The notes beneath the pieces were generated by a model. That model was not told where the DNA came from and ran no database searches. It saw nothing but the letters and a program-made list of their open reading frames with translations. Below are positions 747 to 38,310 of a stretch of 45,182 nt of DNA, piece after piece. The stretch comes from Chamaesiphon sp. GL140_3_metabinner_50 (GTDB lineage: Bacteria; Cyanobacteriota; Cyanobacteriia; Cyanobacteriales; Chamaesiphonaceae): positions 1-45,182 of the forward strand of contig NZ_JANYJC010000135.1 in NCBI RefSeq assembly GCF_025361915.1, read 5' to 3'. The stretch's first letter is position 1, and the number at the start of each line of letters is the position of its first letter. A program made the translations under genes and the position numbers.

Positions 747-787
747 CAATTATGCTTGAAGTAAAGCCCATTCTAGTCCAACAATCT

Positions 788-1597: not shown

Positions 1598-2030
1598 ATC
1601 GTAGTTAAGCCAAATTCGGTCGATCGGTAAGTACGATTGCTGCTGAAATTATTTCGCTCTTCAAGTTAAACCCGACTCGTACTTTAAGCCTTTTTGGCGA
1701 TTACCTTCGGTAGGTGATGCCAACGTTATAGTGTGCAGGGATACTTTTAAATAGCGATAATTAGCAAATGTTTGCGCTAGAATATTTCCAAGTATCAATA
1801 GTTAGCAAATTTGTGCGCTGTGATACTTTTAAATATCGATAGTTAGCAAATTTGTGTGCTGTGATACAGAAGTAGATACCCAACTTGAAATTAAGTTAAG
1901 AGTAAGATTTTTATATATGTTAAGTGAGATTTGAGTAGCCAAGATGCTTAACCTCAAACTTTAATAACTCTATCTAAAGAGTGATATATTACATTTAATT
2001 ACACAGTACTAAATAAAGCGCACTACATTT
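1598..2030 (+). promoter_or_regulatory. cphB-cphA intergenic region, probable cphA promoter region
   Basis: No coding sequence is evident. The stretch holds three 41-bp direct repeats (listed separately) followed by ~160 bp of AT-rich sequence up to the cphA ATG, which is a plausible place for the cphA promoter. I looked for the NtcA consensus GTA-N8-TAC by eye and did not find a convincing copy. No -10/-35 pair is assigned. Confidence 0.4.
1738..1867 (+). repeat. Three 41-bp tandem direct repeats upstream of cphA
   Basis: The core TTAGCAAAT occurs at 1761, 1802 and 1843, exactly 41 bp apart. Units run 1738-1778, 1779-1819 and 1820-1860; a fragment of a fourth (GTGATAC) follows at 1861. Each unit also carries a GATAC or GTATC-like segment and ends in GCGCT or GTGCT. 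Units 1 and 3 share ATACTTTTAAATA. The spacing is close to four helical turns, so the same face of DNA is presented repeatedly. Confidence 0.85.
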
Positions 2031-4775
2031 ATGAAAATTCTCCAAACCCAAACGCTTCGAGGCCCGAACTACTGGAGCATCCGCCGCTCAAAGCTGATTC
2101 TCGTGCGCCTGGATTTGGAGGATCTGGCCGATCGACCTTCTAATACCATTCCGGGGTTTTATGAAGGTTTAGTCGCAACTTTGCCCAGCCTAGAAGAGCA
2201 TCACTGCTCGCCGGGATGTCGCGGGGGTTTTTTGAGTCGGGTCAAAACATCGACAATGATGGGGCATATTCTAGAGCATGTGGCTCTGGAGCTGCAAACC
2301 CTAGCGGGGATGGAAGTTGGCTTTGGGCGCACCCGCGAGACAGCTACAGATGGCATCTATCAAGTCGCGATTGAGTACCAAATTGAAACCGCTGGACGTT
2401 ATGCCGTCAGAGCCGCACTCCGGCTGTGTGAGAGTATCGTCGATACTGGTAGCTACCCCACCGCCGAACTAGAGCGAGACTTGAACGATTTAATCGAGCT
2501 GCGGGATGAAGCCGCATTGGGAGCCAGCACCGAGGCACTAGTCCGCGAAGCTCACCGGATGGGCATCCCCTCGATGACGCTAGATACTTGCGATCTGATT
2601 CAATTTGGCTACGGTAAATATCAAAAACGCATTCAGGCGGCTCTAACTTCCCACAGCAACGTGCTGGGGGTAGAGTTAGCTTGCGATAAGGAACGTACCA
2701 AAAAAATTCTGGCGAGTATGGGCGTACCCGTGCCCGTGGGGATGACGATTGATTCCTTTGGCGAGTTGGCAGGCGCGGTCGAACGATTGGGCTACCCGAT
2801 CGTGATTAAGCCTTTAAATGGCAACCACGGGCGCGGTGTGAGTATCGATATCAAAACGTGGGAACAGGCAGAAGTCGCCTACGATCGCGCGCGGGATATC
2901 TCTAAAGGCACGATCGTCGAACACTTCTATCAAGGTCGGGATCACCGGATTTTGGTAGTAAATCACAAAGTCGTAGCAGTCGCCGAGCGCGTCCCCGCAC
3001 ACGTTGTCGGTAGCGGCTTGTGGACGATCGCCGCCCTAGTCGAGCAAGAGAATCAAAATCCGCAGCGCGGCAAGGGTCACGATAATATGCTCACCCAGAT
3101 TGAAATCGACGACTCGACCAAGGAACTACTCGATCGACAAGGCTATACCCTCGATACCATTTTACCAGAGGGCGAAATTTGTTACCTGCGGGCGACAGCA
3201 AATCTCAGCACGGGCGGGATCGCGATCGATCGTACCGATGAAATCCATCCCCATACCGTCTGGATCGCCGAGCGCGTCTCACACATTATCGGTTTAGATG
3301 TGATCGGGATCGATGTAATTACCACCGATATTACTAAAACCCTCGCCGAGGCAGATGGTACGATCGTCGAAGTCAATGCCGCACCGGGCTTGCGGATGCA
3401 CATCGCCCCCAGTCAAGGTGTCGGTCGGAATGTGGCTGCGCCGATCCTGCAAATGTTATTTCCCCCCGGAACGCCAACGCGAATTCCGGTCGTGGCAATT
3501 ACGGGTACTAATGGTAAAACTACAACCACCCGCGCGATCGCCCATATCTTCAGTCAAGTATATGATTCGGTTGGTTTTACCACTACCGACGGCATCTATA
3601 TCGGCGATCGTCTAGTCGAAAAAGGCGATACTACAGGCCCTCAAAGTGCCCAGATTATTCTCCAAGATCCGACAGTGGATATTGCCGTACTCGAAACCGC
3701 ACGCGGCGGCATTCTTCGCTCTGGGCTTGCTTTCCAATCCTGCGATGTTGGGGTGGTACTAAATGTCGCAGCCGATCATTTGGGCTTAGGCGATATCGAC
3801 AATATCGACCAAATGGCCAAAGTCAAAGCCGTCATCGCCGAAGCAGTTCACGCCGATGGTTATGCGGTACTGAATGCCGACGACGATCGCGTCGCGGCAA
3901 TGGCAAAGCATGTCGTCGGGAAGGTGGCTTATTTCTCGATGGACTCTGATAACCCCCTCGTTCGCGCCCACGTTCAGCGCGGGGGCATTGCTGCCGTGTT
4001 AGAAGAGGGCTACATTTCGATCTTGCAGCAAGATTGGGTACACCGGATCGAGAAAGTCGAGCGCGTACCGATTACCCTGGGCGGACGGGCACCATTTATG
4101 ATCGCCAATGCCCTCGCCGCGAGTCTAGCCACCTTCGTTCAGGGGATGAAAATCGAGCAAATTCGGGCGGGTTTACGCACCTTCCGGGCTTCAGCAGAGC
4201 AGACCCCCGGACGGATGAATTTATTCAACCTGGGCAATTATCACGCGCTAGTAGATTATGCCCACAATCCAGCGGGGTATGCAGCAGTTGGCAGTTTTGT
4301 CAAGAACTGGCCGGGTAAATCGATCGGAGTCATTGGCGGCCCAGGCGATCGCCGCGATGAAGATTTAATCGAATTGGGTCGGCTCTCTGCTACATTCTTC
4401 GATCGGATCGTCATTAAAGAAGATGAGGATCTGCGCGGTCGCGATCGGGGTGAAGTAGCCGCATTAATCGTCCAAGGGATCGCTCAAGCCAAAACCGAGA
4501 CTCCCGTCCCCCACACGATTCAGCTCAACGAAGGCGAAGCACTCGAATGGGCATTAGATCGGGCGGCTGATAATGCATTGGTGGCGATTTTTGCTGATAA
4601 TGTCACTCAATCGATCGCGCTGATTATGTCCCGCAATCCGATTGTTGATGATGTACCAGTAACATCGCCACCAGATCTCAAACTAGTCGGTTTGCCAATC
4701 GCTGCACCAATCGCGATCGGGAATAGCAACAACGGCGATAGTGCCCATGTATTGTCGGCAAAACCCAAGAGCTAG
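2031..4775 (+). CDS. cphA: Cyanophycin synthetase
   Basis: Makes cyanophycin (multi-L-arginyl-poly-L-aspartate) from Asp, Arg and ATP without ribosomes. Three parts are visible in 914 residues: an N-terminal domain with HHCSPGCRGGF (about residues 63-73); an ATP-grasp domain (about 200-470) with KPLNGNHGRGVS and EVNAAPGLRMH; and a Mur-ligase-like domain (about 485-880) with the P-loop GTNGKTTTT near residue 492, then LETARGGILR and DYAHNP. The first ATP-grasp site adds Asp and the Mur-type site adds Arg in known CphA. The length is slightly above the usual ~875-900 because of an extra Gly/Asn/Ser-containing tail. It follows cphB on the same strand, but the 433-bp gap and repeats suggest it also has its own promoter. 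Confidence 0.96.
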   Translation: MKILQTQTLRGPNYWSIRRSKLILVRLDLEDLADRPSNTIPGFYEGLVATLPSLEEHHCSPGCRGGFLSRVKTSTMMGHILEHVALELQTLAGMEVGFGRTRETATDGIYQVAIEYQIETAGRYAVRAALRLCESIVDTGSYPTAELERDLNDLIELRDEAALGASTEALVREAHRMGIPSMTLDTCDLIQFGYGKYQKRIQAALTSHSNVLGVELACDKERTKKILASMGVPVPVGMTIDSFGELAGAVERLGYPIVIKPLNGNHGRGVSIDIKTWEQAEVAYDRARDISKGTIVEHFYQGRDHRILVVNHKVVAVAERVPAHVVGSGLWTIAALVEQENQNPQRGKGHDNMLTQIEIDDSTKELLDRQGYTLDTILPEGEICYLRATANLSTGGIAIDRTDEIHPHTVWIAERVSHIIGLDVIGIDVITTDITKTLAEADGTIVEVNAAPGLRMHIAPSQGVGRNVAAPILQMLFPPGTPTRIPVVAITGTNGKTTTTRAIAHIFSQVYDSVGFTTTDGIYIGDRLVEKGDTTGPQSAQIILQDPTVDIAVLETARGGILRSGLAFQSCDVGVVLNVAADHLGLGDIDNIDQMAKVKAVIAEAVHADGYAVLNADDDRVAAMAKHVVGKVAYFSMDSDNPLVRAHVQRGGIAAVLEEGYISILQQDWVHRIEKVERVPITLGGRAPFMIANALAASLATFVQGMKIEQIRAGLRTFRASAEQTPGRMNLFNLGNYHALVDYAHNPAGYAAVGSFVKNWPGKSIGVIGGPGDRRDEDLIELGRLSATFFDRIVIKEDEDLRGRDRGEVAALIVQGIAQAKTETPVPHTIQLNEGEALEWALDRAADNALVAIFADNVTQSIALIMSRNPIVDDVPVTSPPDLKLVGLPIAAPIAIGNSNNGDSAHVLSAKPKS

Positions 4776-11318: not shown

Positions 11319-12614
11319 TTATACTTCAAGTTTACTATTGGATGGCTGAGGGTGATTGTTATTTTGCAATCGTGCAGCCAATAATACTCCTAGTAGGATA
11401 ATTCCTCCAAAGAAATAATGAGAAATTAATACTTTAAAAAAGAGAAATTGAACAACTGCATCTTGAGATTCAAAAATCACAGGAAGTGATATTAGAAAGG
11501 CACTTAGCCAGATCGAGGTAGCCCACCTCCATCCTTGGGGAACAGCTAATTTATCAGCTATGTATAATGAATAAGGAAGCAGTAAGAGTAGATAATAGTG
11601 AGTCCAAGCAATTGGACTGATGACTAATGCTAAACATAGGACAATTGAGAATTCCAGGTTTTTTTCTTTGACATTATTAGGAGATTTTGAACGCCAAAAA
11701 ACGAATATAACCACACCTACTAGTAGAAAAAGTAGAAAGGCTCGTGCTACTTTGAAGTCCCAACTTATCTCCAACAATTGCCAACTATTCAGTTGAGCAT
11801 TAAGCAACAGGCGAGCTAGAAAGCTATTTACTGACTGAACGTTGAAAGCTCCTATTGGTTTGTCAGCAAAGGGAGCAATGCATTCTTGATACCAAGCTAA
11901 GTGTAGCTTAGTACCAAATAGTAGTAGAGATGCTCCAACAATGGCTATTAGTGCTGCACCATATCCTGCTACTACCCACCATTTTTTCCGTGCGAGATAG
12001 TAAAAGCCTAGAAGCCACAACGGAACTTTTATGAATGCTGTTATCGCCACTAATACTCCATTCCAAATCGCCATTTTCCTGCTATTAAAATAATAAGCTA
12101 CTACCAATAAAAGCAAGACAAAGTGAGTGCTGTTACCTATTTTAACACTGTAATAAAGAGGGCCGTTTATTATAAACAGCCCAGTTAAGACCACAGCTCT
12201 CCAATCAAATGTTTGAGTTATTTTAATAAGCAAATACCAAGTTATAAAAATAGCTAAAATCCCGATAATACGAAATAGTCGCGCAGCATCAGTCTCACTC
12301 AGTACATTTAGAGGTGTAAATACATAAGCTAGTAGCGGGATATTGACAAAACCAGAAACACACACGTCGGCACCTTCTCGGTGGTACATGCTAAATGGAT
12401 TTTGTAAAACTTGCTTACCAGCAGGATAATAAGCTTTTATAAAATCATCACCGTTGCCTACTGTCACCTTCCACATAAATCTTGTCATAATTATAAAAGG
12501 AGCTGTGGAGCATAGCCACAAAACCCATTCCCGTTTCAAGATTTTTTTTGCTAAAGCATTTATACTCAGAGTAGAAATAATTATAAAGGTAAAAAATATA
12601 TAGTTATTCACCAT
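11319..12614 (-). CDS. Membrane glycosyltransferase, GT87/DUF2029-like
   Basis: A 431-residue protein with about ten to eleven membrane helices. After the second helix comes NGDDFIKAYYPAG (Asp56 and Asp57), the acidic loop typical of GT-C enzymes of the GT87 (DUF2029) family, which use polyprenyl-phosphate sugars outside the membrane. Further family-like features are ARLFRIIG, the long hydrophobic core, and the SPIAWTHYYLLLLLPY segment near residue 340. The sequence is AT-rich compared with its neighbours. There is no glycan cluster nearby. Substrate unknown. Confidence 0.75.
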   Translation of the reverse strand: MVNNYIFFTFIIISTLSINALAKKILKREWVLWLCSTAPFIIMTRFMWKVTVGNGDDFIKAYYPAGKQVLQNPFSMYHREGADVCVSGFVNIPLLAYVFTPLNVLSETDAARLFRIIGILAIFITWYLLIKITQTFDWRAVVLTGLFIINGPLYYSVKIGNSTHFVLLLLVVAYYFNSRKMAIWNGVLVAITAFIKVPLWLLGFYYLARKKWWVVAGYGAALIAIVGASLLLFGTKLHLAWYQECIAPFADKPIGAFNVQSVNSFLARLLLNAQLNSWQLLEISWDFKVARAFLLFLLVGVVIFVFWRSKSPNNVKEKNLEFSIVLCLALVISPIAWTHYYLLLLLPYSLYIADKLAVPQGWRWATSIWLSAFLISLPVIFESQDAVVQFLFFKVLISHYFFGGIILLGVLLAARLQNNNHPQPSNSKLEV

Positions 12615-13301: not shown

Positions 13302-16300
13302 ATGAGCCAGAATCTGCTCGGTAGTCTAACAGATGATGAAGAACTTAATGTTTCTGAAGCAGCAGAGGTGTTCGTTTTTCATACTTCCTTTGCCCAACAG
13401 CGATTGTGGTTTCTCGACAGGTTAGCACCAGGCAATCCCTTTTACAATGTCTCAACCGCACTGCGCCTCACAGGTGCGCTAAACTTTACCGCTTTAAAGC
13501 AGACATTTAACGAACTCGTCCGTCGCCACGAAACCTTACGCACTAGGTTTTTGGTGGTGAATGGGCAACCCCTACAGGCAATCTCGCCGAGCCTGAGCAT
13601 CCCGCTACCCCTTGTCGATTTACGCAATCTAGATAGCCCAGAGCAGGAAACACAACTGCGGCAAATCGCCACCGCAGCCGCTCAACAGCCATTCGACCTC
13701 GCCACTGGGCCGTTGCTGCGAGTAAAGCTGCTACAACTAGATGATGCCGAATATGTGCTACTGCTAAATCTACATCACATTGTCGCCGATGGTTGGTCGA
13801 TTGGGGTGCTAGTTCGAGAACTGGGGATATTATACAAAGCCTTTGCATCTGGTAAGGAGCCTACCCTACCGGAACTACCAATTCAATATGCGGATTTTGC
13901 CCAATGGCAACGGGAGTGGCTGCAAGGAGTAGGGACAGGCGATTCGCCATTACAAACCCAGTTGGCTTACTGGCAACAGCAGTTAGCTGGAATTTCGGTG
14001 CTAAATCTCCCCGCAGACCGTCCCAGACCTGCTGTGCCGAGCTATAAAGGTGCAAAACAGGTTTTAGAGTTATCGCCCTCTCTGAGTCAAGCATTAGAGG
14101 CACTGAGCTACCACGAAGGCGTGACTTTATTTATGACGATGCTGGCAGCGTTTGAGACATTGCTCTATCGCTATACGCAACAAGAAGATATTGCGATCGG
14201 TTCGCCCATTGCCAATCGCAACCGGAGTCAATTAGAAGGATTAGTTGGTTTTTTTGTCAATAGTTTGGTGCTACGGACAGATTGTTCGGGGCAACCGACG
14301 TTTCGAGAATTATTGCGTCGAGTGCGAGAGGTAACTTTAGGTGCCTATGCTCATCAGGATTTGCCATTTGAAAAGTTAGTAGAGGAGCTGCACCCAGAGC
14401 GAGATTTGAGCTATCATCCGTTGTTTCAGGTGGCATTTAGCTTTCAAAATACACCGATTTCAGCACTAGAGTTACCTGGAGTAACGCTGTCGCTATTGGA
14501 GTTCGATACCACCACTGCGAAGCTCGATTTAGAGTTCCATTTGTGGCAGGATGCGGGAAGTGTCAAAGGGCAAATGGTATATAGCACCGATATCTTTGAG
14601 AATGCTACTATTACGCGAATGCTCGGACATTTTCAAACTTTGCTAGCAAGTGTTGTTGCTAATCCAGAACAGCGCGTTTCTGATGTGGCGGTGCTGAGTG
14701 TGCGAGAACGACAACAGTTATTAATCGATTGGAACGACACGAACAAAGATTACCCTAAAGAGTGTTTTTATCAGTTATTTGAAGAACAGGTGCGAAAAAC
14801 TCCAGACGCGATCGCGTTAGTATTTAATGAGCAGCAATTAACCTATCAAGAACTAAATATCCGAGCGAATCAACTCGCCCATTATTTGCAAGAAATGGGG
14901 ACAATTCCCGAAGGAGTAGTCGGCATTTATATCGATCGATCTCCAGAAGCTATCGTCGCCATATTAGCTATTTTCAAAGCTGGTGGAGCATATCTCCCTT
15001 TGGATCCTAGTCTACCGCAAGAGCGTCTGAACTTTATGTTAGCAGATGCCCAAGTTTCATTATTAATAATCCGATCGAATTCAAGCGATATATTTAAAAA
15101 TTTCTTACAGCCAATTATTGACATCGATCGAGAGTGGAAAACCATTAAACAATACAGCCCAGAAAACCCCACCAGTTGCGTCACATTAGATAACCTAGCT
15201 TATATTATCTATACATCTGGCTCAACTGGACAACCAAAAGGTGTTGCGATCGAACAGCGAGGATTGTCCAACTTAGCACAAGCTCAGATTGAGATATTTA
15301 ATATTCAACCGAATTACCGGATTTTACAATTTGCATCGTTAAGTTTCGATGCTTCAATTTTTGAGATTGTGATGGCATTGCGATCGGGTGCAACTCTCTA
15401 TTTAGCTGACAAAGAATCCTTATTGCCCGGACAAACTTTGCTCGAATTGTTGCACGAAGAAGCGATTACTCACGTCACCTTACCACCCGCAGTATTAAAC
15501 GTTCTACCTTTAGCATCGCTACCAGCATTGCAAACTATTATTTGTGCGGGTGAATCCTGCCCCGAAGATATTATTAACAGGTGGTGGAAACCTCATCGGC
15601 GGTTTTTTAATGCTTATGGATTGACAGAAGCAACGGTGTGGTCTACCGTTGCCGAAATTAAGTCTCCGAGCGAACAAATATCGATCGGGCGACCGATCGT
15701 GAATACACAAATTTATATATTAGATAAACATTTAGAGCCAGTACCAATTGGAATTAATGGCGAACTATATATCGGTGGTGATGGATTGGGACGAGGATAT
15801 CTCAATCGTCCCGAATTAACTGCCAAACATTTTATTGCTCATCCTTTTGAAGATCGACAGGAATCGCGACTTTACAAAACAGGCGATTTAGCTCGATATC
15901 GATCGGATGGTAATATTGAATTTTTAGGTCGGAGCGACAATCGCGTCAAAATTCGTGGCTTTCGGATCGAATTATCAGAAATTAAAACTGCGATCGGTCG
16001 GCATCCAGATGTGCGAACAGTAGTGGTAATCGATCGAGAGAATAACTATGGAGATAAGTATTTAATTGCTTATATTGTCTCTCGTACAGATACGCCAAAT
16101 TTCACATCTTCATTATTACGCAAATTTTTAACAGAAAAATTACCAGAATACATGATGCCAAAAGCTTTGGTATTTCTAGATGCGCTCCCACTCACTGCTA
16201 GTGGCAAAGTCGATCGAGATGCGCTTATAAAACTCGATCCTGCGCCCAAGATCGATAAGGAATTTATTGCACCGCTTACTCCTACCGAGTCCACCCTGGC

Positions 16301-17393
16301 TGAAATTTGGGCTGAAGTCCTGAATATCGATCGAGTGGGTATTTACGACAACTTCTTCGATTTGGGTGGAGATTCGCTCTTAACTGTCCGGTTGTTACAA
16401 CAAATATCCGATCGACTTAATTATGAATTACCACTAGCTAGCTTATTTTTAAATCCGACACTTGAAAGTTTAGCAGCTTGGATATCTTCACCACCCGATA
16501 CGCTCCCGCGATCGCCTTTAGTTGCAATTCAACCTAATGGCTCAAACTCAGCTTTCTTTTGCATCCATCCCGTGTTTGGTGTTGTTTTTCCTTATTATGA
16601 ATTAGCCGCACAATTAGGGAAGAACCAGCCATTCTATGGACTTCAACCGATCGGACTCGATGGCAAAACTCCGCCCCTAAAGCGGATTGAAGATATGGCT
16701 GCTCATTATATCGAAGCATTGAGATCGGTACAGCCCCACGGCCCTTATTATTTGGGAGGTTGGTCGTTTGGCGGTTGGGTGGCATTTGAAATGGCTCAAC
16801 AACTCCATCAGGCAGGGGAAGAAGTAGCATTACTAGCGGTGCTGGATACTTTGGCACCAATACCAGGACATGTATCTTTAGGTCATGGTTTAAAGTTTAT
16901 GCTAACGACAGCGGCGCGATATATTTGGCCGTTCTTTCTCGATTATGTTTATCTAATTATCGCGATTGTCAAGCAGCAAATTATTAGTTTAATCGATCGA
17001 TTTCCTAATTTTAAAAAAATCGTGCGTTACTCTGGCTGGGAGTGGCTGATGCGATCTCGATCGCATCAGAATGATACCCTCAACCCGTCGAAAGAATCCC
17101 AGCTCAGAATTTTAAGCGAGTTAGCTATCGTGCCGATGCTGCGGGTGTTCTATGCCAATAGTCAAGCAGTGCTTGACTACGTGCCGCAAGCCTACTCCAG
17201 CCGTATCGATTTGTTTAGAACCACGGCTCAGACAAGTATTGGCGAGGACGAGCCGAGTTTGAGCTGGGATCGGCTAGCTGAAGGTGGAACGGAAATTCAT
17301 CATCTTCCTGGCAATCATCTGACGATGCTCAGGAAGCCGCATATCCAGGTGCTTGCGGCACAGCTAAAAGCTTGTATCGATCGAGCTACGTAA
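13302..17393 (+). CDS. Nonribosomal peptide synthetase, C-A-T-TE module
   Basis: A 1363-residue one-module synthetase with a terminal release domain. The condensation domain starts with SFAQQRLWFLDR (about residue 30) and has HHIVADGWS at about 158. The adenylation domain starts near 490, with YTSGSTGQPKG at about 637. The carrier domain has LGGDSL, with the phosphopantetheine Ser near 1024. The thioesterase has GWSFGG (Ser near 1155) and the catalytic-type His in GNHLTML. The A-domain pocket, aligned by eye to GrsA, reads DAFTIAAVWK. This resembles aromatic (Phe/Tyr-type) codes but is not an exact code I know. No epimerase or loading domain is present. Because it carries the only TE, its product should be released here although it is the first gene of the locus. 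Confidence 0.95.
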   Translation: MSQNLLGSLTDDEELNVSEAAEVFVFHTSFAQQRLWFLDRLAPGNPFYNVSTALRLTGALNFTALKQTFNELVRRHETLRTRFLVVNGQPLQAISPSLSIPLPLVDLRNLDSPEQETQLRQIATAAAQQPFDLATGPLLRVKLLQLDDAEYVLLLNLHHIVADGWSIGVLVRELGILYKAFASGKEPTLPELPIQYADFAQWQREWLQGVGTGDSPLQTQLAYWQQQLAGISVLNLPADRPRPAVPSYKGAKQVLELSPSLSQALEALSYHEGVTLFMTMLAAFETLLYRYTQQEDIAIGSPIANRNRSQLEGLVGFFVNSLVLRTDCSGQPTFRELLRRVREVTLGAYAHQDLPFEKLVEELHPERDLSYHPLFQVAFSFQNTPISALELPGVTLSLLEFDTTTAKLDLEFHLWQDAGSVKGQMVYSTDIFENATITRMLGHFQTLLASVVANPEQRVSDVAVLSVRERQQLLIDWNDTNKDYPKECFYQLFEEQVRKTPDAIALVFNEQQLTYQELNIRANQLAHYLQEMGTIPEGVVGIYIDRSPEAIVAILAIFKAGGAYLPLDPSLPQERLNFMLADAQVSLLIIRSNSSDIFKNFLQPIIDIDREWKTIKQYSPENPTSCVTLDNLAYIIYTSGSTGQPKGVAIEQRGLSNLAQAQIEIFNIQPNYRILQFASLSFDASIFEIVMALRSGATLYLADKESLLPGQTLLELLHEEAITHVTLPPAVLNVLPLASLPALQTIICAGESCPEDIINRWWKPHRRFFNAYGLTEATVWSTVAEIKSPSEQISIGRPIVNTQIYILDKHLEPVPIGINGELYIGGDGLGRGYLNRPELTAKHFIAHPFEDRQESRLYKTGDLARYRSDGNIEFLGRSDNRVKIRGFRIELSEIKTAIGRHPDVRTVVVIDRENNYGDKYLIAYIVSRTDTPNFTSSLLRKFLTEKLPEYMMPKALVFLDALPLTASGKVDRDALIKLDPAPKIDKEFIAPLTPTESTLAEIWAEVLNIDRVGIYDNFFDLGGDSLLTVRLLQQISDRLNYELPLASLFLNPTLESLAAWISSPPDTLPRSPLVAIQPNGSNSAFFCIHPVFGVVFPYYELAAQLGKNQPFYGLQPIGLDGKTPPLKRIEDMAAHYIEALRSVQPHGPYYLGGWSFGGWVAFEMAQQLHQAGEEVALLAVLDTLAPIPGHVSLGHGLKFMLTTAARYIWPFFLDYVYLIIAIVKQQIISLIDRFPNFKKIVRYSGWEWLMRSRSHQNDTLNPSKESQLRILSELAIVPMLRVFYANSQAVLDYVPQAYSSRIDLFRTTAQTSIGEDEPSLSWDRLAEGGTEIHHLPGNHLTMLRKPHIQVLAAQLKACIDRAT

Positions 17394-17405
17394 ATGGGCT
17401 GAGGA

Positions 17406-17560
17406 TATTGGCTCCGTTCTCACACCGCCCTGAACTATAAGTTCGGGCTAACAACGAAAGTCCACTGAAGTGGACTGGCAGAAATCTTTCAGTCCACTTC
17501 AGTGGACTTTCGCCATTAGCCCCAAATTCATTTGAGGGCGGTGCAGAAGCGGAGCCAATA
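17406..17560. mobile_element. MITE-like nested palindrome between two peptide synthetase genes
   Basis: A 155-bp element with imperfect terminal inverted repeats (17408-17431 against 17535-17558, 19 of 24 bases ungapped). Inside are GGGCTAA/TTAGCCC (17445-17451 and 17516-17522) and perfect 23-bp inner arms (17455-17477 and 17490-17512) around a 12-nt loop. The element is flanked by TA, as for IS630/mariner-derived MITEs. It begins 13 bp after the stop of the first synthetase gene and carries no reading frame. Confidence 0.8.
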
Positions 17561-17618
17561 CGGTTCGATTAGTCAGCGATTTCAATCGCACGCAACTCTT
17601 AATCCAACAAGAAGCGAT

Positions 17619-20600
17619 ATGTTTTCCTCAGAAGTCTTCGTCTTTCCCACATCATTTGCCCAACAGCGGCTATGGTTCCTCGATCGATCGATTCCTGGCA
17701 ATACTATCTACAATGTACCCACAGCAATTCACCTTACAGGTGCGCTAAATTTAACCGCACTAGAACAGACTTTTAATGAAATCGTCCGTCGTCATGAAAC
17801 CTTACGCACTACTTTTATAGTGGAGGATGGACAACCCCTACAGGCGATCGCACCCAGCGCAACTATCCCTTTGCATGTATTAGATCTCCAGCAATTAGGC
17901 GCGGAAGAGCGAGATGTGAGAACAAAGAGAATTATTAACAACGAGCTACAACATGTCTTCAATCTAGCCTCTGGAACATTATTGCGAGTTACCATCCTCG
18001 CCCTGTCCGAAACAGAACATATTTTGTTAATCAATATGCACCACATTATCTGTGATGATTGGTCGCTGGGGATACTGATTCGGGAATTGGGCACGCTGTA
18101 TACGGCTTTTACCCAAGATCGGTCTTCCCCCCTGTTGGAACTGCCTCTCCAGTACGCCGATTTTGCTCAGTGGCAGCGTGAGTGGCTGCAAGGAGAAGTA
18201 CTCAATACCCAGTTAGCTTACTGGCGGGAGCAATTAAACGGTATTTCGACGCTGCATTTGCCTACCGACAAACCCAGATTGCCGCTCCAAAACTACCGAG
18301 GGGCAACCCAATTTTTAGAGTTACCAAAACTGCTAACCGATCGCTTAAAACAGTTGTCGCAGCAAGCAGGAGTTACCCTATTTATGACGCTGCTGGCTGC
18401 ATTTAAAACGTTAATTTACCGTTATACACACCAATCGGATATCGCGATCGGTTCGCCAATTGCCAATCGTAATCGTAGCGAAATAGAAGGAATAATTGGC
18501 TTTTTTGTCAACACTTTAGTCCTGCGTAGCGATCTAGCTGGAAATCCTACTTTTCGTGAATTATTAGACAGAGTACGAGAGGTAACAGTCGGCGCATATA
18601 CTCATCAAGATTTACCGTTTGAGAAATTAGTTGAAGAATTACATCCAGAGCGAAGCTTGAGCCATCATCCGCTATTTCAAGTGGTATTTGGTTTCCAGAA
18701 TGCACCTATGTCCCCACTAGAATTGCCTGGATTAGTACCAAGCTTAATTAATATTGACTATAAAACAACTCGCTTCGATCTGGAACTGCATCTCTGGAAG
18801 TGTGGCGAAGATTTTCGTAGCTCAGATGGCGGTAACTGGCAAGATACTGAAGGTCTGCGAGGGATAGTCGTATACAACACAGATTTATTCGAGCCAGCCA
18901 CGATCGATCGAATGCTAAACCATTTCAAAAATTTATTATTAGGCATTGTCGCAAATCCCGATCGACAAATTGCTAACTTACCATTATTAAGTGAAGTAGA
19001 GCTAAGTCGGGTAATGGTGGAATGGAATCATACCCAAGTAGATAAATCTCAATATAAGTGTATCCATCAAATCTTTGAAGCAAGAGTAAGACAATATCCC
19101 GATGCGATCGCGCTGAATTTTGCGAGCGATCGCATCACTTATCAAGAATTAAATAGTCGTAGTAATCAACTCGCCCGACATTTACAAAAATTAGGAGTAG
19201 GTGCGGAAGTTTTAGTCGGTATTTGTATTCCTCAATCGATCGACACGATCGTGGGATTATTAGCTATTCTCAAAGCGGGCGGAGCTTACGTGCCATTAGA
19301 CCCCAGCTATCCTCAAGAGCGTCTCAATTTTATGCTTGAAGATGCGCGAGTTGCCGTATTACTGACACAATCGAACTCAATCGATCGGTTTCAAGATTTT
19401 GCAAATCCGATTGTTTCGATCGATAATGATTGGGAAATTATCGATCGAGAACAAGCCGATAATCTCCACTGCGATCCAAATAGCGATAATTTAGCCTATG
19501 TTATTTATACATCTGGCTCGACAGGTCAGCCTAAGGGAGTAGCCGTAACTCACAAAGCAATAAATCGGCTGGTATGCAATCCAAATTATATCAAATTGGA
19601 GCCATGCGATAAAGTCGCCCAAGCTGCAAACATCTCCTTCGATGCAGCGACATTCGAGATATGGGGCGCGTTACTAAATGGTGCCGAACTAGTGGCGATC
19701 GATCGAGAGGTAACGCTTTCGCCTAGAGAATTGGCACTACAAATCCGCGATCGACAGATCGATGTTCTATTTTTAACTACCGCCTTATTTCAACAGATTG
19801 CTAGAGATGTGCCTCAAGCTTTTGCGACAGTCAAGTATTTACTATTTGGTGGCGAGACTGTCGATGTACGCTGGGTTAATAAGATTATCGAACATGGTGC
19901 GTCACAGCATTTAATTCATGTATATGGGCCGACTGAAAATACAACATTTTCTACTTATTACGATCTAAATCTGTCACGATCGATCGCATCTTTACCGATC
20001 GGTCGTCCGATTACCAACACCCAAATTTATATATTAGATCCTCATCTACACCCGCTACCGATTGGCGTTACTGGCGAAATCTATCTTGGTGGAGACGGAC
20101 TGGCACGAGAATACCTCAATCGCCTTGAGTTAACTGCTCAATATTTTATCACCGATCCTTTCAATTGCGATGCAAATACACGTCTTTATAAAACGGGAGA
20201 TTTCGCTCGTTATTTACCAGATGGTAATATCGAATTTTTAGGTCGCACTGATAATTTAGTAAAAATTCGTGGTTTTCGGATTGAGTTATCAGAAATTGAA
20301 GCGGTATTAAATAGACATCCAGCAGTCAGTGAAAATATTGTCATTGTTGCAGAGAATGTGCCCGACGATAAACACTTAGTCGCTTATATCGTACTCGATC
20401 GACAACAAATGCCAACGCCAGAAATACACAGCTTTCGGCAATTTCTCAAATCGAAGTTACCAGCATATATGGTGCCAACAGTTTATATGTTTCCAGAATC
20501 TTTACCACTCACACCGAATGGAAAAGTCGATCGAGCGGTATTACCAACTCCCGATTTAATGAATTATCACGATCGAGATTATGTGGCACCGCGATCGCAA

Positions 20601-20876
20601 ATTGAAGAGTTACTTACCGAGATTTGGGCGAAAGTATTGGGCAAAGAGCGAATAGGTATCCACGACAATTTTTTTGAATCTGGCGGTCATTCGCTGCTAG
20701 CGACTCAATTAATGTCCCGAATTCGCGACACTTTCCAAATAGATTTACCCGTTCGCAATTTGTTTGAATCACCCACGATCGCCCAACTTGCCAGACATAT
20801 CGATACAATGTGTTGGGCAGCAAGTGTGGATGAAACTGAAACTATAGGACTCGATCGAGAAGAAGTAGAATTTTAA
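17619..20876 (+). CDS. Nonribosomal peptide synthetase, C-A-T module
   Basis: The ATG at 17619 gives 1085 residues beginning MFSSEVFVFPTSFAQQRLWF, parallel to the start of the upstream synthetase. A TTG at 17532 would add residues encoded by the MITE-like element and is rejected. The condensation domain has HHIICDDWS (about residue 141), with Asp in place of the usual final Gly of HHxxxDG. Adenylation domain: YTSGSTGQPKG near 631. Carrier: SGGHSL, Ser near 1024. The A-domain pocket read against GrsA is DAFFLGVTFK, which fits Ile (or Val). There is no release, epimerase or methylation domain. Product transfer must go to another protein. Confidence 0.93.
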   Translation: MFSSEVFVFPTSFAQQRLWFLDRSIPGNTIYNVPTAIHLTGALNLTALEQTFNEIVRRHETLRTTFIVEDGQPLQAIAPSATIPLHVLDLQQLGAEERDVRTKRIINNELQHVFNLASGTLLRVTILALSETEHILLINMHHIICDDWSLGILIRELGTLYTAFTQDRSSPLLELPLQYADFAQWQREWLQGEVLNTQLAYWREQLNGISTLHLPTDKPRLPLQNYRGATQFLELPKLLTDRLKQLSQQAGVTLFMTLLAAFKTLIYRYTHQSDIAIGSPIANRNRSEIEGIIGFFVNTLVLRSDLAGNPTFRELLDRVREVTVGAYTHQDLPFEKLVEELHPERSLSHHPLFQVVFGFQNAPMSPLELPGLVPSLINIDYKTTRFDLELHLWKCGEDFRSSDGGNWQDTEGLRGIVVYNTDLFEPATIDRMLNHFKNLLLGIVANPDRQIANLPLLSEVELSRVMVEWNHTQVDKSQYKCIHQIFEARVRQYPDAIALNFASDRITYQELNSRSNQLARHLQKLGVGAEVLVGICIPQSIDTIVGLLAILKAGGAYVPLDPSYPQERLNFMLEDARVAVLLTQSNSIDRFQDFANPIVSIDNDWEIIDREQADNLHCDPNSDNLAYVIYTSGSTGQPKGVAVTHKAINRLVCNPNYIKLEPCDKVAQAANISFDAATFEIWGALLNGAELVAIDREVTLSPRELALQIRDRQIDVLFLTTALFQQIARDVPQAFATVKYLLFGGETVDVRWVNKIIEHGASQHLIHVYGPTENTTFSTYYDLNLSRSIASLPIGRPITNTQIYILDPHLHPLPIGVTGEIYLGGDGLAREYLNRLELTAQYFITDPFNCDANTRLYKTGDFARYLPDGNIEFLGRTDNLVKIRGFRIELSEIEAVLNRHPAVSENIVIVAENVPDDKHLVAYIVLDRQQMPTPEIHSFRQFLKSKLPAYMVPTVYMFPESLPLTPNGKVDRAVLPTPDLMNYHDRDYVAPRSQIEELLTEIWAKVLGKERIGIHDNFFESGGHSLLATQLMSRIRDTFQIDLPVRNLFESPTIAQLARHIDTMCWAASVDETETIGLDREEVEF

Positions 20877-20914
20877 TCGATTACTAATTATTGCAGTTGT
20901 TATAATCGATCGTA

Positions 20915-21202
20915 TTAGCCATTCGATCTCAATTGCTGAAGTTGCTCTAACGTCAGTCCAGTTGCTTCGGCGATTGTTTCTAGGGGAATATTCTTACGCA
21001 GCAAGTTGAGTGCGATCGACTGTTTTTGACGCTCCTCACCTTTGGCTTCACCCTGAAGCTCGCCTTCAAGTTTAGCCTTATTAATTTTAGCTTCGTACAA
21101 AGCATCGATTTGTGCCATCGTGTTCATAAAATCTTGCTCCTCTAGAGTTAAAAGTTGTGTAGGGATATCTTTGATGTAAACACAATATTTAATACATGCC
21201 AA
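20915..21202 (-). pseudogene. C-terminal remnant of an Rpn-type (PD-(D/E)XK) nuclease/transposase gene
   Basis: Ninety-five residues ending with the typical tail of cyanobacterial Rpn/PDDEXK family proteins: charged KLEGELQGEAKGEERQKQ, then ALNLLRKNIPLETIAEATGL and TLEQLQQL. Full members run about 250-300 residues with the nuclease domain in front. Here the N-terminal part is missing and the preceding bases toward NRPS gene 3 give no continuation, so this is a truncated leftover. It lies opposite in strand between two synthetase genes, a sign of past insertion or rearrangement. Confidence 0.72.
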
Positions 21203-21378
21203 AATTATGACCGCCTGAGTGTTATCAAACCTTCAGCCCAAGGAATGATTTTTGCACTCTTATAAATATGTTACACTTTCAATCTAGTTGCTAAATTTAG
21301 GTAGGATTCACCCGATCGGGCAATCTTGCGAAATCATACCCATCGATAGATTAATAACTGTTGCGAAGGAGTGTAGTG

Positions 21379-24300
21379 ATGCAGACGATCGAATTCTTAG
21401 CTTATCTTCGTAGTTTAGATATTCAAGTTTTTATCGAAGGTGAAAAGTTTCGCTGTAACGCTCCTGAAGGGATTCTGACAGCAGAACTCAGAGCAGAAAT
21501 CCAAGCGCGTAAATCAGAAATTATTGGATGTTTAGCAGCAACTAATCATCCTCATCATCACAACTTTAAACCGTTGGTACCGATTTCGCGATCGAGAAAT
21601 ATGCCGCTATCTTTTGCACAACAACGGTTATGGTTTCTCGATCGATTAATGCCGAATCATCCTTTTTATAATATTCCCCTCGCCCTAAATTTGACAGGCT
21701 CGATCGATCTTCGCGCGCTAGAGCAAACTTTCAACGAAATAGTGCGCCGACATGAGGCTTTACGCACCAAGATTGTCATGGAGTCAGGGCAACCAGTTCA
21801 GCTAATCCATCCGACTCTAACCATCCCCTTGCCTGTCATCGATTTACAGCAATTACCACCAGCCGAACGCGAAAGCCGAGCCAAACAGCTCACTCTTGAA
21901 GCAACTCAACATCCATTCAATCTATCAGCCGAGCCGTTGCTCCGAGTCAAACTGCTGCGATTGGAACAGACGCAATCCATCCTACTGCTGACATTGCACC
22001 ACATTGTTGCCGATGGGTGGTCGATAGGGGTGCTGATGAACGAAATCGCCTCACTTTACCCAGCATTTGCCAACAATCACCCTTCACCATTGCCGGAATT
22101 GCCAATCCAATATGCTGACTTTGCAGACTGGCAACGCCGATCGTTGCAAGGTGATGTTTTAGCAACACAACTCGGCTACTGGCAACAACAATTAGACGGG
22201 ATTTCGATCCTAAATTTGCCCACTGACAGACCGCGATTAGCTGCTCAAACCTATCAAGGTGCAAGACAACCGTTGCAATTATCCAAAAGTTTGAGCTTGG
22301 CACTTTTAGCCCTGGGACAGCAAGAAGGGGTAACTTTATTTATTACTCTGTTAGCAGCATTTCAAGTTTTACTTTACCGATATACACAGCAATCAGATAT
22401 CGCGATCGGTTCGCCAATTGCTAATCGCAACCGGAGTGAAATTGAAGGGTTAATTGGCTTTTTTGTCAATAGCTTAGTGTTACGTACCGACCTGTCTGGA
22501 AACCCAACTTTTCGAGCAGTATTAAGTCGAGTTAAAGATGTAGCTTTAGGAGCCTATGCCCATCAAGATTTACCTTTTGAAAAACTAGTCGAGGAACTAC
22601 ATCCAGAGCGTAATTTGAATCAAAATCCGCTATTTCAAGTGATGTTTGCGCTGCAAAATGCACCGATGATGGCGTTAGAGTTACCCGATCTAACTTTAAA
22701 TCCGCTACCATTTGAAACGGAAACAACCCGCTTCGATTTGGAGTTGCACTTATGGGAACCAAATACTCGAAATGGATTGTGGGCAGATAGTTCGGAAGGA
22801 ATTAGTGGTTTTGTAATTTACAGTACCGATTTATTTGATGATGCCACGATCGCCAGGATGCTAGGACACTTTCAAATATTACTAGAAGGGATAGTTACTA
22901 ATCCAGAACAACAAATCGCCCACTTACCACTTTTGAGCAAATCTGAACTCGATTGTTTATTAGTTAAATGGAATGAAACGCGCTTAGATTATCCTCAAGA
23001 TAAGTTAGTACATCAGTTATTTGAAAACATCGCCAAGCAGTATCCAGATGCGATTGCACTGGTATCTGAAGACGATCGACTCACTTATCAAGAGTTAAAT
23101 ATTCGCAGCAACAAACTCGCACACTTTCTCACCAAATCTGGAGTAAGAGCCGAAGTTTTAGTTGGACTTTGTGTAGAGCGTTCTTTCGATCTAGTTATCG
23201 GCATGTTGGCCATTCTCAAAGCAGGTGGAGCTTATGTCCCGATCGATCCAACCTATCCATCCGAACGTTTGAACCTGATGATTCGAGATGCGAATATCTC
23301 AGTGCTATTAACTCATGAATGCTGGCTCAAACGACTGGACAATCGCGATCTACGAGTCATCTGTGTAGATAAAGATCGGGCAAGTATCGATCGAGAACCT
23401 GAAGCTAATCTCGATTGTCAAGTTGGATTGAATAATCTTGCTTATGCGATCTATACTTCTGGCTCGACTGGCACTCCTAAAGGCGTAGAAATCGAACATC
23501 GAGGATTATTAAATCTCGTATTTTGGCATCAACACGCGTTTGCAGTTTCATCGAGCGATAAAGCAACGCAGATTACTGGGATTAGCTTTGATGCTTGCGG
23601 TTGGGAAATTTGGCCGTATCTTATTGCGGGAGCGAGTATTTATTTTGTAAATGATGAAGTTCGGCAAATGCCAGAGCGGTTGAAAGATTGGCTGATTGCA
23701 AAGGCGATAACTATTTGCTTTTTGCCAACTCCTTTAGCTGAGAAAATTCTGTTATTAGATTTCCCTGAAAATACCGCTTTACGAATATTGCTTACAGGTG
23801 GAGACAAACTAAATAACTATCCTCAAGCCGATCTTCCCTTCCAATTATTTAATAATTATGGGCCGACTGAGAACACAGTCGTGACAACTTCGGGGCGAAT
23901 TACTGTTGAAGATCGAGATAATTTAGCACCTGCAATCGGTCGAGCGATTGCCAATACACAGGTTTATATTCTAGACAAATATTTACAACCCGTACCTGTC
24001 GGTATTTCAGGAGAAATATATATCAGTGGTGATGGATTGGCGCGAGGTTATTTAAACCGTCCTGAATTAACTGCCGAATGCTTTATCGAGCATACTTTTA
24101 ATAATAACTTAACAGCGCGACTTTATAAAACTGGCGATCTCGCTCGTTATCGAGAAGATGGTAATATTGAATTTTTAGGTCGCACTGACGATCGCGTAAA
24201 AATTCGAGGCTATCGGATCGAGTTGGGTGAAATTGAAGCAGTACTAAATCATCATCCCGCAGTACAGCAAGCTGTCGTGCTAATGCGTGAAGAGCTAGGA

Positions 24301-26103
24301 GAAAAAACTCTGTTAGCTTATGTATCTCCTCGAATAACTTTCAGTACAGAATTAGAAAATAGTCAATCGATTCAGTTGCAAGATGAACAAGTTTTACAAT
24401 GGCAGATGCTCTATAATGAAACTTACGATCGACCTGTTAATTTCGATCCTAAATTGAATATTGTCGGTTGGAATAGTAGCTATACCGATCGACCTCTACC
24501 AGCAAAGCAAGTGTATGAGTGGGTCGATAATCAAGTCGAGCAGATTTTGGCTTTGCAACCCGAACGAGTGTTAGAAATAGGGTGCGGAACGGGTTTAATA
24601 TTATTTAGAATTGCTCCTCACTGCGATCGATATTGGGGTACTGATTTTTCGCCAGTTTCGATTAACTATATTCAGCAGCAGTTAGCACACCAAGAACTGC
24701 CGCAGGTAGAACTATCCGCTCGAATGGCTACCGATTTCGATCGCGTAGCCCCAGCAACTTTTGATACAGTAATTCTCAACTCGGTCGTCCAATATTTTCC
24801 AACGATCGATTATCTAATTGATGTCATTGCAGGAGCGATCGAGGTAACTACTCCCGGCGGTCAAATTTTCATCGGCGATGTGCGGAACTTGCCCCTCTTA
24901 CAAGCTTTTCATACATCAGTGCAACTCGATCGAGCCGAGCCATCCCTTACTTGTTTAGAGTTACAGCAACGGGTACAGATGGAAATATTTCAAGAAACAG
25001 AATTAGTCATCGATCCAGCTTTTTTTACGGCTTTACAGCAACGCTTACCACAAATCGATCTCGTCCAAATTCAACTAATGCGGGGTAAATATCATAATGA
25101 GTTAACTGCATTTCGTTATAATGTTACCCTTCATATTAGCGACGAAACTATTAGCCGCGAACCTATTAGCGATCGAGAAAATTATCCAGCAATAAACTGG
25201 TCGAAAGCTAATCTTAGCATCTCAGCAATACGTCAGTTATTAATTGACGATCGACCGGAAAGATTAAACATTCTCAATGTACCGAATGCGCGGGTAATGT
25301 CAGCAGTTAAAACAGTCGCATGGCTAGTAGACGGAGCGGGTTATAAAACCGTCGGTCAAATTCGGAAAGCCTTGCAAGAAATCGAAAACTTGGGAATAGA
25401 TCCAGCAGATTGGTATGCGATCGATCTACCTTATCGTGTCGATATTACCTGGTCGAATTCTAGTAACGAAGGAGATTATGATGTGATGTTTATCCGCCAA
25501 GATCTAGTCACCCAAAAAAATACTTTCTCCCAGCGCACGACTGACGATCGCCCTTGGCAATCTTACGCCAATAACCCTCTCCAAGCCAAAGCCACACAGA
25601 AGTTAGTGCCGCAATTGCAAAGTTATCTCGCTCAAAAACTGCCTGAATACATGCTGCCATCAGCTTTTGTAATATTGGAGTCTCTACCGCTCACAGCCAA
25701 TGGTAAGATCGATCGTCGCGCCCTCAAAGCATTGCACGATCCGATCGAGATGCGATCGGATCGTTACATCGCACCTCGGACTTCGATCGAACGCGCACTT
25801 GCGAACATTTTTAGCGAAGTTTTGGGACTCAAACGCGTTGGAATTTACGATAATTTCTTTGAATTAGGCGGTCATTCATTACTTGCTACTCAGCTTGTCT
25901 CTAGAGTCCGCGATGCTTTGCAGGTAGAGTTGCCTTTGCGAAGCGTATTTGAAGCATCCACGATCGATCGACTAGCTACAGTGGTGGAAAGCTTGAAGCA
26001 CAAACCTCATAGTCAAGCTCCAGCATTAGTACCACTATCGCGAGAAAGTCGGCGGATGAAGTTATCTGCCTCGAACGAAGAAAGTAAGGGCTTATCTCTT
26101 TAA
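21379..26103 (+). CDS. Nonribosomal peptide synthetase, TubC docking-C-A-(N-methyltransferase)-T
   Basis: The ATG at 21379 has a Shine-Dalgarno sequence AAGGAG (21366-21371, 7 nt spacing) and is preferred to the TTG at 21361. The protein has 1574 residues. Residues 1-52 (from MQTIEFLAYLRSLDIQVF) resemble the TubC N-terminal docking domain. The condensation domain follows, with HHIVADGWS near 206, then an adenylation domain with YTSGSTGTPKG near 692. An N-methyltransferase is inserted before the last A motifs (about 985-1400; SAM motif VLEIGCGTG near 1064). A10 is LPLTANGKIDRR, and the carrier is GGHSL with Ser near 1499. The A pocket reads DAWFLGNVVK, a classic Leu code, so N-methyl-leucine is predicted. 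No thioesterase. Confidence 0.94.
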   Translation: MQTIEFLAYLRSLDIQVFIEGEKFRCNAPEGILTAELRAEIQARKSEIIGCLAATNHPHHHNFKPLVPISRSRNMPLSFAQQRLWFLDRLMPNHPFYNIPLALNLTGSIDLRALEQTFNEIVRRHEALRTKIVMESGQPVQLIHPTLTIPLPVIDLQQLPPAERESRAKQLTLEATQHPFNLSAEPLLRVKLLRLEQTQSILLLTLHHIVADGWSIGVLMNEIASLYPAFANNHPSPLPELPIQYADFADWQRRSLQGDVLATQLGYWQQQLDGISILNLPTDRPRLAAQTYQGARQPLQLSKSLSLALLALGQQEGVTLFITLLAAFQVLLYRYTQQSDIAIGSPIANRNRSEIEGLIGFFVNSLVLRTDLSGNPTFRAVLSRVKDVALGAYAHQDLPFEKLVEELHPERNLNQNPLFQVMFALQNAPMMALELPDLTLNPLPFETETTRFDLELHLWEPNTRNGLWADSSEGISGFVIYSTDLFDDATIARMLGHFQILLEGIVTNPEQQIAHLPLLSKSELDCLLVKWNETRLDYPQDKLVHQLFENIAKQYPDAIALVSEDDRLTYQELNIRSNKLAHFLTKSGVRAEVLVGLCVERSFDLVIGMLAILKAGGAYVPIDPTYPSERLNLMIRDANISVLLTHECWLKRLDNRDLRVICVDKDRASIDREPEANLDCQVGLNNLAYAIYTSGSTGTPKGVEIEHRGLLNLVFWHQHAFAVSSSDKATQITGISFDACGWEIWPYLIAGASIYFVNDEVRQMPERLKDWLIAKAITICFLPTPLAEKILLLDFPENTALRILLTGGDKLNNYPQADLPFQLFNNYGPTENTVVTTSGRITVEDRDNLAPAIGRAIANTQVYILDKYLQPVPVGISGEIYISGDGLARGYLNRPELTAECFIEHTFNNNLTARLYKTGDLARYREDGNIEFLGRTDDRVKIRGYRIELGEIEAVLNHHPAVQQAVVLMREELGEKTLLAYVSPRITFSTELENSQSIQLQDEQVLQWQMLYNETYDRPVNFDPKLNIVGWNSSYTDRPLPAKQVYEWVDNQVEQILALQPERVLEIGCGTGLILFRIAPHCDRYWGTDFSPVSINYIQQQLAHQELPQVELSARMATDFDRVAPATFDTVILNSVVQYFPTIDYLIDVIAGAIEVTTPGGQIFIGDVRNLPLLQAFHTSVQLDRAEPSLTCLELQQRVQMEIFQETELVIDPAFFTALQQRLPQIDLVQIQLMRGKYHNELTAFRYNVTLHISDETISREPISDRENYPAINWSKANLSISAIRQLLIDDRPERLNILNVPNARVMSAVKTVAWLVDGAGYKTVGQIRKALQEIENLGIDPADWYAIDLPYRVDITWSNSSNEGDYDVMFIRQDLVTQKNTFSQRTTDDRPWQSYANNPLQAKATQKLVPQLQSYLAQKLPEYMLPSAFVILESLPLTANGKIDRRALKALHDPIEMRSDRYIAPRTSIERALANIFSEVLGLKRVGIYDNFFELGGHSLLATQLVSRVRDALQVELPLRSVFEASTIDRLATVVESLKHKPHSQAPALVPLSRESRRMKLSASNEESKGLSL

Positions 26104-26346
26104 TTGGCACTGGCGACTACATTCGATCGTCCCCCAATTCAATCCACGCCTCATTTACTTTCACCAATTGTATGTTCTTAGTTCGGGCTTGTATCGACGA
26201 TAATTACGGTAAAGATTTGGTAGCTAGCTCTAAGTAAATGTTGGCTGGAAAAAGATCTGAACAAAATGTGGCCGAATGCGAACTCTGCTAAATCGGCTGG
26301 GTACTCTAGTAAACAGAGTAGTACCCCATTTTTCCAAATCTGCACT

Positions 26347-37632: not shown

Positions 37633-38310
37633 TTAGTCTCGCAGTACGTAGCCAACACCGCGCACGGTTTGAATCAGCCGCTTACCGCCGTCTTTTTCTA
37701 ATTTGAGCCGGAGATAGCGCACGTAAACTTCGATGACATTAGATTCGCCCAAAAAGTCATATCCCCAAACATTTTCTAAGATTTGTTCTCTAGTCAGTTC
37801 GGTTTCGGGATGGGACATTAGATACCGCAGGAGTTCAAACTCTTTGACGGTGAGTTCGATGGTACGATCGTGTCGCGATACCCGATGCGTGACAAAATCT
37901 AACACCAGATCGCTAAACCGCAGTTGTTCGCCGACGCTGACATTAGAGTGCAGATACAACCCGATCTCGTGTAAAAATTTGGGGGCGTGATAGGGTTTGA
38001 GTACGTAGTCATCGGCTCCAGATTCTAAGCAAACGATTCGATCGGCGATCGCATCGTTGGACATGAGCATGAGAATGGGCACCATCAAACCCAATTCTCG
38101 CAGTTGGGGAATGAGTGTGAGTGCCGATTCTCCAGGTAGAGATCGATCGATCGCAATCAAGGCTGGATGCAGTTTTTTAGCCTGCTCTAAGCCCATTCTA
38201 GCAGTTTCGGCGATCGCGACTTGATAGCCTGCTTTAGTCAGATCGAGGCTAATTTTCTCAGCCAAGATTAGATCGTTTTCGATTAAGACAATTGGGGTAT
38301 TTTCTGCCAT
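37633..38310 (-). CDS. nblR: OmpR/PhoB-type response regulator, NblR-like
   Basis: 225 residues: an N-terminal receiver with phospho-acceptor Asp55 (LIAIDRSLPGES), Lys105 (YVLKPY) and acidic residues at 11 and 13 (the usual middle acid is Asn12); then a winged-helix DNA-binding domain (about 130-225) with LTVKEFELLRYLM, ENVWGYDFLGESNVIEVYVR and TVRGVGYVLRD. The GESNVIEVYVRYLRLKLE helix and overall length resemble cyanobacterial NblR, a regulator of phycobilisome breakdown under stress, rather than RpaA or RpaB. That assignment is from memory of the family and needs a tree. No histidine kinase gene is adjacent. Confidence 0.72.
   Translation of the reverse strand: MAENTPIVLIENDLILAEKISLDLTKAGYQVAIAETARMGLEQAKKLHPALIAIDRSLPGESALTLIPQLRELGLMVPILMLMSNDAIADRIVCLESGADDYVLKPYHAPKFLHEIGLYLHSNVSVGEQLRFSDLVLDFVTHRVSRHDRTIELTVKEFELLRYLMSHPETELTREQILENVWGYDFLGESNVIEVYVRYLRLKLEKDGGKRLIQTVRGVGYVLRD

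Follow-up and report, generated by a model that had tools for sequence, protein, structure and literature searches.

Which of three adjacent peptide synthetase genes begins the chain, when the only thioesterase (TE) lies in the first of them and the only N-terminal docking domain in the third? This question was raised by a Chamaesiphon draft assembly (3.86 Mb, 394 contigs), from which we analysed one entire contig, C301, a stretch of 45,182 nucleotides referred to here as the window. Non-collinear NRPSs are already known, and the chemistry of the three genes is that of an ordinary NRPS. The trio is an orphan with a widespread family of relatives, a synthetase found in cyanobacteria from soil and lichens and in plasmid-bearing ones that is uncharacterised in the literature searched, and with only three modules its product should be easily predicted and tested. 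New here are an acidic condensation (C) domain motif in gene 2 (g2), the common ancestry of the three C domains, and the nesting of the window copy within a Nostoc clade; the orphan product and the g2 motif are most worth pursuing.

Organization of the locus

As listed in Table 1, the trio consists of three single-module genes on one strand with zero internal stops. Pfam searches and the intact reading frames thus bore out what a first-pass annotation of the window had described, including the sole TE in gene 1 (g1) and the sole TubC-type docking domain in gene 3 (g3), whose TubC_N match (PF18563) scored 60 bits against a cut-off of 26. The catalytic residues are all present, namely the TE triad, the carrier motif GG[HD]SL and the HH pair in all three C domains, and the C, A and carrier domains stand in cis with intact core motifs, as in modular type I NRPSs. 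Gene 3 has an N-methylating interrupted A domain, in which the methyltransferase (MT) sits between A8 and A9, conserves the SAM motif VLEIGCGTG and aligns with the interrupted A domain of TioS (5wmm).

The list of open reading frames opens g2 at TTG 17532, which falls within the palindrome between g1 and g2, and g3 at TTG 21361. We moved these starts to ATG 17619 and ATG 21379 because the orthologs start there; judged from the sequence these are more likely the true starts, and that of g3 is preceded by AAGGAG.

Among the window ORFs scanned there was no epimerase, loading module or transporter, as the annotation had stated. Its further claim that the window holds no regulator did not stand, since an OmpR-type response regulator is encoded at 37633-38310, with no sign of belonging to the trio. 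Because the window is one contig of the 394, absence from it does not mean absence from the genome. The number of promoter-like sites matched chance expectation (32 against 32.0). Elsewhere in the window (752-4775), a peptidase S51 (cyanophycinase-like) gene is followed by a cyanophycin synthetase gene.

Table 1. Features of the synthetase trio (positions in the window)
Feature	Position	Strand	Make-up or predicted role	Evidence
Gene 1 (g1)	13302..17393	+	C-A-T-TE; predicted final module (code DAFTIAAVWK) plus release	Pfam; orthologs conserve code and TE triad; position behind g3 in 2-3-1 loci
g1 condensation domain	13383..14723	+	Motif HHIVADGWS	
g1 thioesterase, approximate bounds	16557..17387	+	Ser in GWSFGG, Asp in LDT, His in GNH	
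Large imperfect palindrome, g1-g2 intergenic	17406..17560	.		RNA fold
Gene 2 (g2)	17619..20876	+	C-A-T; predicted first module (Ile/Val)	Pfam, orthologs, code
g2 condensation domain	17643..19001	+	Non-canonical HHIICDDWS, Gly replaced by Asp	
g2 SLiM-type docking tail DREEVEF	20853..20873	+	C-terminal	Class as in PMC9113145
Frame-broken stretch, g2-g3 intergenic	20878..21170	-	Resembles C-terminal end of Rpn-type nuclease/transposase gene	By eye
Gene 3 (g3)	21379..26103	+	TubC_N(betaHD)-C-A-MT-T; predicted second module (N-Me-Leu)	Pfam, orthologs
g3 TubC-type beta-hairpin docking domain	21391..21534	+		Pfam; PDB AerJ 8aqq, TubC 2jug
g3 N-methyltransferase embedded in A domain, approximate bounds	24478..25300	+		Pfam; matches 5wmm

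Orthologous trios and the order of assembly

Relatives were collected by a plasmid protein search with g3, then by a genome-contig scan with g3, and then by a separate search of 60 relatives. The first search returned full-length g3 relatives on Nostoc plasmids at 65-75% identity, and three of those annotated have g1 and g2 beside g3; a plasmid-mining paper (PMC8600333) does not mention these plasmids. Of the 76 loci from the contig scan, about 45 were orthologous, and in all some 50 genomes and plasmids of cyanobacteria have orthologous trios. The order 1-2-3 is shared by the window and 21 other loci of Nostoc type. The order 2-3-1 on one strand occurs in nine genome-contig loci from Laspinema, Microcoleus, Scytonema and Tolypothrix (L054, L057, L058, L062, L065, L067, L071, L073 and L076), and in six more sets among the 60 relatives (L130, L131+L132, L133+L134, L135, L136 and L051+L140). 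L135 is a compact operon of this order, and a g2/g3 overlap of 4 bp occurs both in Laspinema and in L135. One further locus (L137:2582-11256), a two-gene, two-module relative that apparently makes a dipeptide, encodes g2 and a single TubC-C-A-MT-T-TE protein, in which the TE follows straight after the g3 carrier; this places the TE end downstream of g3.

In every ortholog for which the C-terminus of g2 was available, it reads (R)-E-E/D-x-E-F/L, and the TubC-type domain is kept on g3 throughout, with the exception of the chimera L011 on plasmid C052. An N-terminal docking domain on g2 is absent from all orthologs. A receiver domain on g3 and a short charged tail on g2 are, by sequence, the two halves of a betaHD/SLiM pair, and such C-terminal tails bind betaHD domains (PMC9113145, PMC6195595). 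The nearest solved relatives of the g3 docking domain, AerJ (8aqq) and TubC (2jug), belong to other pathways, those of aeruginosin and tubulysin. This pair is conserved in collinear and permuted loci alike, which indicates that docking tails, not gene order, define the assembly line.

The working order g2, g3, g1-TE is thus supported by the 2-3-1 relatives (about 15 loci), by the pairing of the g2 tail with the g3 domain and by the TE fused onto g3 in L137. Assembly against gene order with gene 1 last had been proposed in the first-pass annotation, and these findings uphold it; of the two starting genes that it allowed, gene 2 is retained and gene 3 is given up, with the docking tail on g2 and the receiver on g3.

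No recognised docking pair was found at the g3/g1 junction. The mean net charge is +3.3 for the g3 tail and -4.3 for the g1 head, but the g2 head is acidic too and charge does not discriminate, so docking by charge was dropped at this junction. In the nearest complete genome of the genus (G001; a 6,284,095-bp chromosome and three contigs), all three genes are intact at 78-84% identity. There g3 is on the opposite strand, at a distance of about 27 kb from the g1-g2 pair, and the subunits therefore need not be co-transcribed. Directly upstream of g1 in that genome (L119:7625-9246) stand an Inhibitor_I10 precursor and an MvdD-type pre-ATP-grasp gene (marinostatin/microviridin-like). A second NRPS, which has a DREEIEI tail and a TubC-type receiver of its own, is encoded on contig C193 of the host (L121:1937-6563), and crosstalk of this pair with the trio is possible by sequence.

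Pocket codes and the predicted peptide

Motif-anchored derivation gave DAFTIAAVWK for g1, DAFFLGVTFK for g2 and DAWFLGNVVK for g3, identical in all three genes to the codes first read by eye. Of the orthologs whose code is complete, 28/32 for g1, 40/42 for g2 and 43/48 for g3 share every one of the ten positions; invariant columns make up about a quarter or fewer of the A domains (113/436, 113/444 and 173/855, respectively). In the extra orthologs from the 60 relatives, the g1 and g2 codes are kept but for single conservative changes. Related sequences are not independent, and with that reservation the conservation of the codes is strong evidence for a maintained product. The middle code of L135 and L137 is DAFIIGAIWK or DAFLIGAIWK (the latter in L137) and not the Leu code, so the family is not uniform.

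The g1 code DAFTIAAVWK had no mention in the literature searched; its likeness to Phe codes, such as DAWTIAAICK of GrsA, leads us to guess an aromatic residue. The other two codes have published uses, which back the earlier assignment of Ile/Val to g2 and Leu to g3. In cyanopeptolin enzymes DAFFLGVTFK stands for Ile, with some cases of Val, and in suomilide-type ones it stands for Ile (PMC2533009, PMC13122637), and DAWFLGNVVK stands for Leu (PMC7524897) and is among the commonest codes in PMC12283262. By this analogy the g2 and g3 assignments are supported, and the Leu code together with the MT that aligns with TioS predicts N-Me-Leu for g3.

Taken together, we consider it probable that the trio forms one NRPS working in the order g2, g3, g1, docked between g2 and g3, with the sequence Ile/Val-N-Me-Leu-X and release by the TE. 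Gene 2 would activate Ile (or Val) and start synthesis without a donor; its acidic C-terminal tail would dock on the TubC-type domain of g3, which would activate and N-methylate Leu before condensation. Gene 1 would add the third residue, possibly aromatic, from the DAFTIAAVWK pocket, and its TE would release the chain. The simplest product would be a tripeptide, Ile/Val-N-Me-Leu-X, linear or cyclised by the TE, and a small N-methylated peptide is a reasonable prediction from the genes. A product or description of the trio was not found in the literature searched, largely that outside subscription journals. Several observations count against this model: the C domain of g2 is of elongation type although no donor for it is known, the g3/g1 junction has no recognised docking pair, the pair on contig C193 might engage in crosstalk, and a strong palindrome separates g1 from g2 in the window.

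The condensation domain of gene 2

In the main set, the g2 motif is HHxxxDD in 41/41 readable orthologs, although neighbouring positions vary (CDD, SDD). In contrast, the C domains of g1 and g3 read HHxxxDG, with Gly in 73/73 readable sequences, and other C domains from the same loci have Gly in 120/136, Asp in 0/136 and Glu in 2/136. Six distant g2 orthologs keep DD (ADD or CDD) and three have HHIIFDEWS. The idea that the acidic motif is exclusive to first modules was rejected, since both DE exceptions among the 136 are internal modules, from Chloroflexota.

In a FastTree phylogeny of 151 C domains, those of g1, g2 and g3 formed one clade (support 1.0), separate from all others, with g2 and g1 as sisters, which points to a shared origin and, by sequence, makes the g2 domain a descendant of one of the system's own elongation domains. 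The closest PDB matches of the g2 domain were Txo2/Txo1, and the Rzm starter-type C domains scored far lower. We therefore rejected g2 as a starter C domain on tree and PDB ranking, a subtype call that uses few references. The trio probably grew by module duplication, or its C domains were homogenised by recombination. An actual example of the latter process is L011 on the Nostoc C052 plasmid (L011:14926-19551), where the N-terminus of g1 is joined to the body of g3 and the rest of g1 and g2 are missing; its sequence is that of a natural recombination between C domains.

In fuscachelin C3, whose motif is HHxxxDE, the acid helps a small acceptor and is not essential (Izore et al., PMC8097023). 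As there, an acidic residue replaces the motif Gly in g2, and in distant orthologs it is exactly DE; the two differ in the acceptor, which is Gly for C3 and is predicted to be Ile for g2, and no donor is known for g2. One doubtful suggestion is that the g2 C domain was kept with its acidic residue (DD/DE) for a donor-free start, for example by holding the Ile-carrier or by blocking a false donor. If true, the acidic motif would allow converted starter modules to be recognised. Either way, its conservation in a predicted first module poses a biochemical question of how such lines start.

Alternatively, g2 might not come first, and its C domain might join Ile to an acyl group or amino acid supplied by an enzyme whose gene lies elsewhere; the peptide would then be N-capped or longer. 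A complete g2 C domain that keeps its HH pair in the orthologs, its elongation type in the tree and further NRPS contigs in the host genome all favour such a donor. However, at about 45 loci, flanked 2-3-1 clusters included, no FAAL, ACP, PKS or other loader recurs beside the trio, g2 lacks an N-terminal docking domain in every ortholog, and its C domain matches Txo2/Txo1 rather than the Rzm starter type. Epimerase and dedicated transporter genes likewise do not recur there. A Planktothrix plasmid NRPS/PKS locus (NZ_LR882964; L013) has consecutive subunits resembling the end of g2, g3 and g1, in this order, at 42-49% identity; unlike the trio, it opens with a fatty acyl-AMP ligase, an ACP and a PKS. 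The trio also differs from lipopeptide NRPSs in that its g2 C domain clusters with those of g1 and g3 and no loader is nearby, although subtype references are few. We regard a donor from elsewhere as rather unlikely, and retain g2 as the probable first module.

Comparison with iterative synthetases

The trio resembles the RXP synthetases of Xenorhabdus/Photorhabdus in its stand-alone single-module subunits, its MT within the A domain and its betaHD/SLiM docking (PMC6195595, PMC9872161). RXP enzymes make short apolar N-methylated peptides, a likeness that for the trio is predicted from the genes. Such docked subunits iterate in RXP enzymes, and receiving a chain would give the elongation-type C domain of the first module a use; the trio might thus be iterative, its TE joining two tripeptides in the style of gramicidin S or its modules making RXP-like repeats, with a cyclic hexapeptide or a library as product. 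The docking domain is on g3 only, though, which makes the line directional, whereas in RXP synthetases it is N-terminal on all subunits. An RXP line, moreover, closes with a terminal C domain that captures an amine, and the trio with the PF00975 TE of g1. The TE class has no predictive value for cyclisation; among PDB structures, the g1 TE region matched AB3403 (4zxh) best, which has the same C-A-T-TE order but another pathway and substrate. Iteration is accordingly unlikely, and a single pass through g2, g3 and g1 is preferred.

Origin and state of the window copy

In the g3 tree, the window and G001 fall within the Nostoc clade, and a clade of Nostocales only was rejected (p 8.9e-12). The trio was found at high identity in only 2/11 genomes of the family searched, whereas the adjoining tilS is roughly as far from Nostoc as it is from Laspinema, Scytonema and Kastovskya (52-57%). 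These sequences are best read as the result of horizontal transfer, perhaps on a plasmid, out of a Nostoc-like source; this would explain why the window has the Nostoc gene order. Several relatives have the ORF at 26266 next to tilS, and in G001 the trio does not adjoin these two. The relatives compared gave no clean empty insertion site, because they do not share the upstream genes.

Where the g1-g2 gap of Nostoc is 9 bp, the window has the palindrome. The region 17394-17618 folds at -115.7 kcal/mol (z -13.7), and the 21-nt core has one further copy in the genome (contig C187); its sequence may be the remnant of a small mobile element. Together with the broken gene remnant between g2 and g3, it could mark a transferred copy that no longer works as a unit in this strain. 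In the first set, moreover, a membrane-anchored alpha/beta hydrolase gene stands divergent before g3 in 22 loci, and no ortholog of it was found in the host genome; frameshifted or fused copies also occur in some relatives (L009, L060, L011). Three intact ORFs with every catalytic motif and conserved codes argue against decay, as does the intact trio of G001 with its distant g3, and we find a defunct copy quite improbable. In two of the relatives named, g2 and g3 are split by frameshifts (L009:10327-19753 on a Nostoc UHCC 0926 plasmid and L060 in a Rhizonema MAG), which reflect either decay or sequencing error.

The order 1-2-3 in the window is explained as a permutation of the collinear 2-3-1 arrangement, that of an ancestor or relative. 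The tree needs at fewest two separate permutations, and a single one was not rejected (p 0.46). Collinear assembly from g1 through g2 to g3 is extremely improbable: the genes stand in that order on one strand, but the TE in g1, the pairing of the g2 tail with g3, the 2-3-1 order in many relatives and the TE-g3 fusion of L137 all contradict it.

A GT87-family gene adjoins the trio in the window (11319-12614), has no counterpart in the ten other family genomes searched and may have been acquired in one segment with it. In 12 loci (11 of Nostocaceae type and Mojavia; for example L034:6688-8220), a sucrose-synthase-like glycosyltransferase is encoded close to g3, in most cases in the stretch that separates g2 from g3.
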